Shown: in pieces, positions 42,825 through 43,705 of the stretch
Numbering within the stretch: position 1 is the first letter of the stretch
Layout: every line of letters starts with the position of its first letter
Assembly (NCBI GenBank): GCA_902609685.1
Contig: CACLSR010000002.1
Span: 124,001-188,000 of the forward strand
Direction: 5' to 3'
DNA length: 64,000 nt
DNA from: an uncultured Pelagibacteraceae bacterium
GTDB taxonomy: Bacteria > Pseudomonadota > Alphaproteobacteria > Pelagibacterales > Pelagibacteraceae
The notes under the pieces: model-generated
What the model was told of the DNA's origin: nothing
What the model saw: only the letters and a program-made list of their open reading frames with translations
Databases searched by the model: none
Translations under genes and position numbers: made by a program

Positions 42825-43130
42825 ATGAGAAATTTTAAATTAATCGTGTTGTTACTTAGTTTCTTCTTAATGGTTACCGCATGCCAGACCGTACAAGAAA
42901 AAACTGATAAAATTGTTGAGCAAGAAAATAAAAGATTGAGTAAATACATAGGTCAATTATCCAGTGAACTTAAAATTGATCTAGGAAATCCTGATGAAGA
43001 TTTTAAGAACGAAAAAGGAAATCAAGTTCTTGTTTATAAAACAAAAAAATATGGTATTTCTTGTGAAAGAAAATTTGAGGTAGACACTAACTCAGTCGTG
43101 ATTGGATTTTTATCAAAAGGATGTTTTTAG
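42825..43130 (+). CDS. Small lipoprotein of unknown function
   Basis: A 101-residue predicted lipoprotein. The signal segment ends with lipobox VTAC, acylated Cys at residue 20. The mature part has a short helical stretch (KTDKIVEQENKRLSKY) and then a beta-rich region with two Cys residues (positions ~79 and near the last residue, KGCF) that could form a disulfide. I do not recognise the family. A monocistronic gene between purine permease and hsp20. Confidence 0.75.
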   Translation: MRNFKLIVLLLSFFLMVTACQTVQEKTDKIVEQENKRLSKYIGQLSSELKIDLGNPDEDFKNEKGNQVLVYKTKKYGISCERKFEVDTNSVVIGFLSKGCF

Positions 43131-43171
43131 TTTACCTGCGGAGCTAGTTACCCCGCAAGCAAGGCTTTAAA

Positions 43172-43618
43172 TTATCTAATTTCGATTAGTTTTTTCTTCT
43201 TATGCTCTGGTACAATTCTCTCGCAAGATATTGTTAAAAGTCCATCTTTGAGTTCAGCACCATTTACTTTAACATCATCAGCAATTGTAAATGATCTAGC
43301 AAATTGTCTTTGAGATATTCCTTTATGAATGATCTCTCCATCAGCATTTTTATCTTCAGATTTATCAACTTGTTTTGTTCTTACAGTTAATAAATTATCT
43401 TCGAACTCAACCTCAACATCTTTTTTGTTGAATCCTGCTAAAGCAACTTCAATAGCGTAGTTATCTTTACCAGTCTTTCTGATGTTGTATGGTGGGTAAT
43501 TGGATTGCATTGTCATTGCACCATTTCCCAACATATTCTCAAATTGATCAAACATGTCGTCGAACCCAATCGAGAATGGTCTTAATGAGTTAAATATAGA
43601 TAGATCCTTACTTGTCAT
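43172..43618 (-). CDS. ibpA: Small heat-shock protein, Hsp20/IbpA family
   Basis: A 148-residue alpha-crystallin-type holdase. The core domain (~35-135) includes PPYNIRKTGKDNYAIEVALAGFNKKDVEV by pattern (YNIxK, ALAGF), RQFARSFTIADDV and DGLLTISCERIVPE, with the IEI/IEIR C-terminal tail. The ATG at 43618 follows a strong Shine-Dalgarno, AAGGAGG; a TTG at 43639 is rejected as it lies in the leader hairpin. A sigma-32-like promoter and a ROSE-like RNA thermometer lie upstream, so heat induction is expected at two levels. Confidence 0.94.
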   Translation of the reverse strand: MTSKDLSIFNSLRPFSIGFDDMFDQFENMLGNGAMTMQSNYPPYNIRKTGKDNYAIEVALAGFNKKDVEVEFEDNLLTVRTKQVDKSEDKNADGEIIHKGISQRQFARSFTIADDVKVNGAELKDGLLTISCERIVPEHKKKKLIEIR

Positions 43619-43622
43619 ATAT

Positions 43623-43640
43623 CCTCCTTTGTTAAGCAAG
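43623..43640 (-). ncRNA. ROSE-like RNA thermometer hairpin over the hsp20 Shine-Dalgarno
   Basis: In the hsp20 leader, UUGCU (43639-43635) can pair with AGGAG (43628-43624) across a 6-nt loop, with one G-G mismatch. This U-U/C-G-C-U against AGGA(G) pairing with a central G-G is the conserved core of ROSE thermometers found before hsp20 genes in alpha- and gammaproteobacteria. C43640-G43623 extends the stem. Only this 3' hairpin was worked out; upstream stems were not convincing by eye. Confidence 0.55.
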
Positions 43641-43677
43641 TTTATTTATAAGCCCCATTAGGCGACCTACCTTACTT

Positions 43678-43705
43678 ATATAGGAACGATTAAAGTTTTT
43701 TCAAG
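43678..43705 (-). promoter_or_regulatory. Sigma-32-like heat-shock promoter of hsp20
   Basis: On the minus strand CTTGAAA (43705-43699), a perfect sigma-32 -35 element, is followed by 14 bases and CCTATAT (43684-43678), close to the CCCCATNT -10. The start site would be near 43671, giving a leader of about 53 bases. The groES promoter has the same spacing and near-identical boxes. Confidence 0.72.

Follow-up and report, generated by a model that had tools for sequence, protein, structure and literature searches.

A probable short two-hairpin ROSE-like RNA thermometer in the hsp20 leader of SAR11 bacteria

ROSE-like elements and the SAR11 hsp20 leader

In the available extracts of PMC3669281 and PMC11342760, ROSE-like elements are characterized by their position, in classical members, in the leader of a small heat-shock protein (sHsp) gene, by a U(U/C)GCU motif imperfectly paired with the Shine-Dalgarno (SD) sequence in the 3'-proximal hairpin, by a bulged or G-G-opposed G within the SD helix, by one or more stable 5' hairpins, and by opening and translation that depend on temperature. 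The ROSE-like leader of Pseudomonas ibpA, as extracted from PMC3669281, measures about 60 nt and consists of two hairpins, of which hairpin I is stable, with a function described there as 'not fully understood', and hairpin II sets U(U/C)GCU against the SD. ROSE-like elements of ABC transporter genes carry UUGCU and a bulged G beside a U-G wobble, but precede other genes and no sHsp (PMC11342760, extract). The same extract gives a crystal structure of such an element, with a bulged G, and an older NMR structure with a G-G pair (PMC11342760). In addition, extracts of PMC12857270 describe ROSE-G, in which CUGCU presents a bulged G facing a bulged G.

The leader described here belongs to a SAR11 (Pelagibacteraceae) genome of 1.19 Mb in 20 contigs, and the whole 64,000-nt stretch of it that was analysed is termed the window. 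A locus with a 95%-identical Hsp20 occurs in 'Candidatus Pelagibacter ubique'. The features, all on the minus strand, are as follows.

43699..43705, minus: -35 element CTTGAAA of sigma-32 type, from the sequence and kept in relatives
43677..43684, minus: -10 element CCTATATA, from the sequence and kept in relatives
43648..43670, minus: hairpin I, GUAGG-UC-[G]-CC-UAAU-GG-GG-CUUAU, with bulged G at 43663; the stem covaries and the tip is nearly fixed
43641..43647, minus: A/U linker separating the two hairpins, of variable length in relatives
43634..43640, minus: ROSE arm CUUGCUU, the anti-Shine-Dalgarno, with UUGCU at 43639-43635, from sequence and conservation
43623..43629, minus: SD AAGGAGG, pairing with the ROSE arm in hairpin II, from anchored counts and SD energy
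43607..43618, minus: start codon and codons 2-4, ATG ACA AGT AAG, with codons 2-4 conserved at the nucleotide level
43172..43618, minus: hsp20, sHsp of 148 aa (PF00011, 63.8 bits, cut-off 20.8, E 1.7e-17)

From 43640 along the minus strand, the leader reads CTTGCTTAACAAAGGAGGATATATG. The sequence-only reading that first proposed a ROSE-like element here had UUGCU facing AGGAG across a 6-nt loop, and both its letters and its coordinates are correct: the loop UAACAA spans 43634-43629, AGGAG 43628-43624 and ATG 43618-43616. At the other end of the gene, a GCGGGG..CUCCGC stem lacking a U-run (43138-43156, minus) lies 3' of hsp20 between convergent ORFs and is a possible terminator; the convergent ORF of 101 aa (42825-43130, plus) begins like a lipoprotein and matched nothing in Pfam at E 0.001.

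With the Pseudomonas ibpA leader as extracted from PMC3669281, the SAR11 leader shares the length of about 60 nt, the two hairpins with a stable hairpin I, the sHsp gene and a hairpin II that opposes U(U/C)GCU to the SD, whereas SAR11 leaders are AT-rich, have a core without a G-C clamp on both sides and frozen codons 2-4, and come from a marine host. UUGCU and the bulged G are also held in common with the ABC transporter elements. The E. coli ibpA leader (L291) offers a CTTGAAA..CCCATTTT promoter and UCGCU before the SD, as in SAR11. Unlike the SAR11 leaders, it is a full match to Rfam ROSE_2 (100.4 bits, serving as the positive control), and it is longer, with additional structure.

Comparison with the Rfam ROSE models, a check put forward in the sequence-only reading, went against formal membership. 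At gathering cut-offs the whole window returned no Rfam match, and at a permissive threshold ROSE_3 (RF02523) aligned over its full length and at the correct place, the leader, but with 12.4 bits against a cut-off of 43. ROSE_3 or ROSE_2 (RF01832) was found at the leader in five of 34 loci scanned (L106, 25.8 bits; L165, 27.6; L163, 23.3; L175, 23.0; L180, 22.8), the best scores being 27.6 for ROSE_3 and 22.8 for ROSE_2 (cut-off 65); the remaining 29 had no match to either model, and none of the 34 reached a cut-off. What is shared with ROSE_3 is the succession of an unpaired-G hairpin with a GCC..GGG tip, an SD hairpin and AUG, and the window and five relatives align to the whole model. Scoring below the Rfam cut-offs, the SAR11 leaders are classed as ROSE-like on their architecture and not as Rfam members. 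A match to SpF36_sRNA (E 1.3) fell on the opposite strand and was taken as chance.

In the open-access literature searched, mostly at listing level, the SAR11 hsp20 leader is not named as a ROSE element. Extracts of PMC6429828 (2019) mention 'a possible RNA thermometer' in SAR11 HIMB5, which may be the hsp20 leader, and a word search of the PMC2704228 text, as far as available, returned no 'heat shock', 'hsp', 'thermometer', 'chaperone' or 'ibpA'. The SAR11 hsp20 leaders are best read as a new clade of ROSE-type thermometers that Rfam misses.

Promoter, Shine-Dalgarno sequence and the two hairpins

The sigma-32 promoter consensus consists of CTTGAAA, a spacer and CCCATNT. In the window, CTTGAAA and CCTATATA are separated by 14 nt, the -10 element ends 6 nt 5' of hairpin I, and the pattern CTTGAA-N12-19-CCNANAT has this hsp20 promoter as its only match on either strand; RpoH itself is encoded in the genome (TIGR02392, 363.6 bits). 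Conservation was followed in 172 of 173 unique upstream stretches, those in which hairpin I could be recognised; here the -10 box agreed at 6 or more of 8 positions in 140, the -35 box at 6 or more of 7 in 161, and both in 135, compared with 20 of 3440 shuffled upstream sequences. Of the 135 with both boxes, 134 have a 14-nt spacer, and in 117 the -10 box ends 6 nt from hairpin I. The commonest -10 elements in relatives are CCCATATA (44/172) and ACCATATA (35/172). The sigma-32-like promoter claimed just upstream of the leader agrees with the class in its CTTGAAA, spacer and CCTATATA and in the presence of RpoH, and its activity is predicted. Transcription probably starts near the foot of hairpin I, which would give a leader of about 52-58 nt.

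The contrast drawn in the sequence-only reading between an unusually strong SD and its weakly equipped neighbours also stands. Among the 61 ATG-started ORFs of at least 100 aa that were called by script in the window, hsp20 has the strongest predicted anti-SD energy (-11.8 kcal/mol, against a median of -0.4), and AGGAG precedes three ORFs and GGAGG two.

Hairpin I is supported by covariation. In 97 realigned leaders of 100 searched (omitting L158, the same place as L138, together with L196 and L198, the two lowest true scorers with model R1, described below), 98.8% of the cells of its main stem are paired and seven of nine pairs have changed on both sides. For the whole 15-pair structure, 93.4% of cells are paired, with eight pairs and 62 cells changed on both sides, while slid-partner controls gave 42-60% paired, 0-5 pairs and 0-27 cells. 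Two leaders are of separate note: L196, with the lowest true R1 score (28.4 bits), has no GCC..GGG tip in hairpin I, and L198 bears an additional hairpin-like insert between hairpin I and the SD hairpin.

For hairpin II, TYGCT..GGAG..ATG was present in 212 of 216 hsp20 loci, that is, in 212 of 213 readable leaders; of the four exceptions, no leader is present in L004 or L041, a contig end truncates L204, and the divergent copy L199 reads TGTCT. The 216 loci include duplicates in which the same place was fetched twice, and there are 165 unique family leaders, whose arm reads UUGCU in 161 and UCGCU in 4. FourU thermometers present UUUU opposite the AGGA of the SD. That class was rejected on motif comparison only, the SD-facing run being UUGCU and not UUUU, as was ROSE-G, UU or UC preceding GCU in all these leaders.

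Because the SD hairpin of the CCUUGCU leaders is out of register in alignment A3, this hairpin was recounted by anchors; the anchors require YYGCT and GGAG, so that the G is present in every anchored leader by construction. The bulged-G register (CUY[G]CU against AGGAG) has a core of five pairs, formed in 165, 165, 165, 165 and 163 of 165 leaders; beyond this core, the adjoining outer pair forms in only 49 and the adjoining inner pair in 135. For the G-G register the counts are 128 for the outermost C-G pair, 161 for the U-A pair beside the G, 135 for the inner pair and 163-165 for the rest. In the CCUUGCU leaders, which have an extra C (n = 29), the facing base is always G, whereas this G is absent in 37 of the 136 leaders with A in place of the extra C; the inner flank of the core is U-A in 133 and A-A in 29 of the 165. 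The bulged-G register thus fits the relatives better than the G-G-opposed one, and the central G-G mismatch proposed earlier holds in part, being preferred by the energy model for the window but not by the relatives. The suggested inspection of both arms had a similarly divided outcome: UUGCU and AGGAG are conserved, but covariation is mute on their pairing because they hardly vary.

Distribution within and beyond the family

Model R1 was built from 27 family leaders, the window's included, and its matches within the family are consequently not independent. In the window's genome it scored 77.4 bits at hsp20, and further ROSE copies there were rejected, the next matches reaching 14.7-19.7 bits (E 0.38-8.8). 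The Pelagibacterales sample comprised 147 genomes, 94 of them Pelagibacteraceae and 90 of those with hsp20; a match at the hsp20 start was obtained in all 90 (E <=2.9e-9, all positions compared by eye). Three of the four Pelagibacteraceae without hsp20 had no R1 match, and the fourth (G212) had two weak ones (E 0.0015 and 0.0075). A second, weak match away from hsp20 occurred in seven of the 90 genomes, namely G168 (C4:18841-18908), G141 (C3:144702-144765), G290, G251, G227, G410 and G273, with 25.1-32.8 bits and E 7.5e-5 to 0.0094; these may be additional ROSE-like leaders or chance matches.

The second family of the order has a divergent hsp20 and, in the loci printed (L200-L211), the leader TTAATCGCTTAAGGAGGATTAA with another upstream hairpin; R1 matches four of its genomes at E <=0.01. 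As a separate observation, TTAATCGCTTAAGGAGGATTAA forms a symmetric stem around the SD, a second ROSE-like design within the same order. In an independent sample of the class, R1 matched 18 of 188 genomes outside the family at E <=0.1. Seven of the 22 loci outside the family, including the five best-scoring, have hsp20 downstream, and six of these seven matches reach the gene start, that at L280 ending 53 nt short; for the other 15, tblastn (E 0.01) found no hsp20 in the fetched stretch. One genome (G098, contig C13) carries a pair of hsp20 copies with equal scores, separated by about 5 kb, through duplication or as an assembly artefact.

A thermometer was also considered for groES (start 61443, minus), where the leader ACTCCATATTTATATAGGAG can enclose its SD in a CUCC/GGAG hairpin, and was rejected, few of the 30 printed groES leaders keeping the pairing. 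The groES leaders do keep a CTTGAAA..CTATATG-like promoter.

Altogether, the central proposal of a ROSE-like element before hsp20 was upheld by the 216 loci, the covariation of hairpin I, the near-invariant anti-SD core, the weak but correctly placed Rfam matches, and the recovery by R1 of hsp20 leaders from other Alphaproteobacteria. The sequence and structural traits of the class as extracted from PMC3669281 and PMC11342760 are present: an sHsp gene (PF00011), the U(U/C)GCU arm against the SD in 212 of 213 leaders, a G bulged or opposed by G amid core pairs kept in 163-165 of 165, and a stable 5' hairpin.

Modelled folding of the leader, possible competing pairings and the hairpin I tip

The SAR11 hsp20 leader is probably a short two-hairpin ROSE-type RNA thermometer, and we infer from its architecture both a temperature response and translational control. 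Transcription from the RpoH (sigma-32) promoter would begin near the foot of hairpin I, which would form the stable 5' fold. At ordinary temperature the CUYGCU arm would hold the strong SD in a weak hairpin containing a bulged or G-G-opposed G, and warming, or 30S binding aided by the strong SD, would open hairpin II so that Hsp20 could be made.

When modelled without its ORF, the window leader folds as first drawn at 15, 25 and 37 C, with an SD unpaired fraction of 0.19-0.24; the drawn fold was recovered, but no opening appeared in this range. For the isolated SD hairpin, the predicted half-opening temperature has a SAR11 median of 60 C (95 unique segments), with 59 C for the window's segment, which L034 shares, and 42 C for L042; elsewhere it is 65 C (median of 46 other leaders), 48 C (11 second-family leaders) and 71 C for E. 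coli ibpA. As this E. coli element is a working thermometer, absolute temperatures from the model are not reliable; AT content may account for the lower SAR11 values.

Constraint at the nucleotide level extends into codons 2-4. In 128 unique hsp20 genes of 148 aa, 111 columns other than Met and Trp reach an amino-acid identity of 95% or more; among these, codons 3 and 4 alone are written with one codon throughout, codon 2 ranks third, and the median share of the main codon is 78%. Ser3 is AGT in 127 of 127 and Lys4 AAG in 126 of 126, although neither is the favoured codon elsewhere in hsp20, where AGT accounts for 71 of 1138 Ser codons and AAG for 355 of 1713 Lys codons. Likewise, 142 unique MT(S/G)(K/R) starts have ACA in 141, AGT for all 140 Ser and AAG for all 140 Lys. 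In the GroES control (15 genes of the commonest length, of 30 loci), the Lys codons 2 and 4 mix AAA and AAG (8/7 and 12/3) and codons 5-12 vary, but codon 3 (Phe) is TTT in all 15 counted, with TTC in two of the 30 starts printed.

The stretch AAGUAAG around codons 3-4 is complementary to the ROSE arm CUUGCUU over seven pairs, and both arm types keep seven continuous pairs with the ORF, CUUGCUU with AAGUAAG and CCUUGCU with AGUAAGG. The leader might accordingly be bistable, a double lock in which the arm pairs with either the SD or codons 3-4; codon pairing would enclose the SD and AUG in a loop of some 20 nt, initiation could be hindered in both states, and the pairing would belong to the RNA element in clades with an MTSKD start. 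This reading is tentative and on balance doubtful, with predictions that depend on how much ORF is included. For the window with 15 nt of ORF, the energy model gives the arm a pairing probability of 0.94-0.99 with codons 3-4 and at most 0.05 with the SD between 15 and 37 C, and with 39 nt a probability of 0.46-0.85 with the codons. Masking of the SD by UUGCU, as in the sequence-only reading, therefore describes the fold without ORF, where the SD is mostly paired, but is not the predicted minimum once the ORF is included and codons 3-4 become the arm's partner. Over 130 unique leaders the mean probability of arm-codon pairing is 0.73-0.75 with 15 nt of ORF and 0.59-0.68 with 24 nt, but falls to 0.16-0.27 with 36 nt, where arm-SD pairing rises to 0.40-0.50. 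Folds that include the ORF show hairpin I, except that its 5' strand pairs with codons 5-7 with 21 or 27 nt of ORF, and with 39 nt at 25 and 37 C.

Synonymous recoding gives a similarly mixed picture. None of 200 recodings of the window reached the observed arm-ORF probability, and among 20 representatives nine have a probability equalled by at most 6% of recodings, two of them with a low value in itself (L175, 0.03; L187, 0.10), while 11 do not. Leaders with other N-termini are predicted to pair the arm with other early codons in L176, L178, L181 and L195 (0.79-0.98), the first three lying above at least 97.5% of recodings; however, most other N-termini match the helix with codons 3-4 poorly, and in L132 the complementarity is lost. 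Further against the double lock, the g2, g3, g4 and g6 representatives have arm-ORF probabilities of at most 0.01 with 33 nt, L059 from the window's own genus has 0.38, inside its recoding range, the real codons of MTSKD starts rank only 10th-16th of 96 synonymous versions with ties counted, and GroES codon 3 (Phe TTT) is likewise invariant in the 15 genes counted. Arm-codon pairing is the best candidate for the constraint on codons 2-4. A possible hairpin within the ORF was also seen at codons 4-9 of L157, L163 and L168 (genera g4, g3 and g2), with arms that look covarying (AAGGAUC/GAUCUUU, AAGGAUU/AAUCUUU and AAGGACA/UGUCUUU); the window's genus mostly has ATA at codon 8.

The tip of hairpin I raises another possibility. 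It was scanned as X[G]CY, a loop of 3-8 and RGX', closed by at least four pairs, no more than 85 nt before the arm. Among non-redundant leaders, a bulged-G tip occurs in 71 of 75 from SAR11 and 38 of 43 from outside the family, compared with means of 0.7 and 1.8 (maxima 3 and 5) in dinucleotide shuffles. The 43 go back to 53 loci, which include E. coli and five loci of other classes in the phylum; 46 of the 53 fitted the ROSE-arm pattern. The commonest form, in most leaders, is YGCC..GG, and the E. coli ibpA tip (L291), CGCCUGAUGGG, recurs letter for letter in some SAR11 leaders (L053, L092). Its conservation in SAR11 and other ROSE leaders suggests that it does more than prop up the leader. 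By analogy with E. coli IbpA, which binds its own leader via R93 and also needs Y34 and R97/K98 (PMC10474464, extract), hairpin I might be a putative binding site through which Hsp20, when free of aggregates, represses its own synthesis, with the thermometer on top. In line with this, R104, Y41 and R108, which align with R93, Y34 and R97, are invariant in 128 of 128 SAR11 Hsp20 sequences; however, where E. coli IbpA needs the charge of K98, 127 of 128 have Ser109, such residues may be kept for chaperone reasons, and the tip could simply nucleate folding. We consider Hsp20 binding rather unlikely.

That the locus has only a strong SD, with upstream pairing by chance, is very improbable: an energy model will find a partner for the SD in many leaders, but this arm is kept in nearly every readable leader while neighbouring bases vary, hairpin I covaries, and the genome's single significant site is at hsp20.

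Returning to the ROSE-type thermometer, a more speculative and rather improbable extension is that it reaches into the ORF, the arm being shared by the SD and codons 3-4 as exclusive partners in most Pelagibacteraceae leaders examined, hence the frozen ACA AGT AAG; with the fixed bulged-G tip as a possible Hsp20 dock, the leader would be a three-part switch and not a simple zipper. If so, translation would be set by whichever pairing wins as the first codons emerge and the temperature changes.

For ROSE elements, the SAR11 leader set is a natural experiment on a large scale: it speaks for the bulged-G register and directs further work to the fixed hairpin I tip and to frozen codons 2-4. According to extracts of PMC13198564, SAR11 are the most abundant heterotrophic bacteria of the marine plankton, and reduced-genome oligotrophs have few transcriptional regulators. 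The presence of the element in all 90 sampled family genomes with hsp20 suggests that these bacteria control their heat response directly at translation, in an ocean that is warming.
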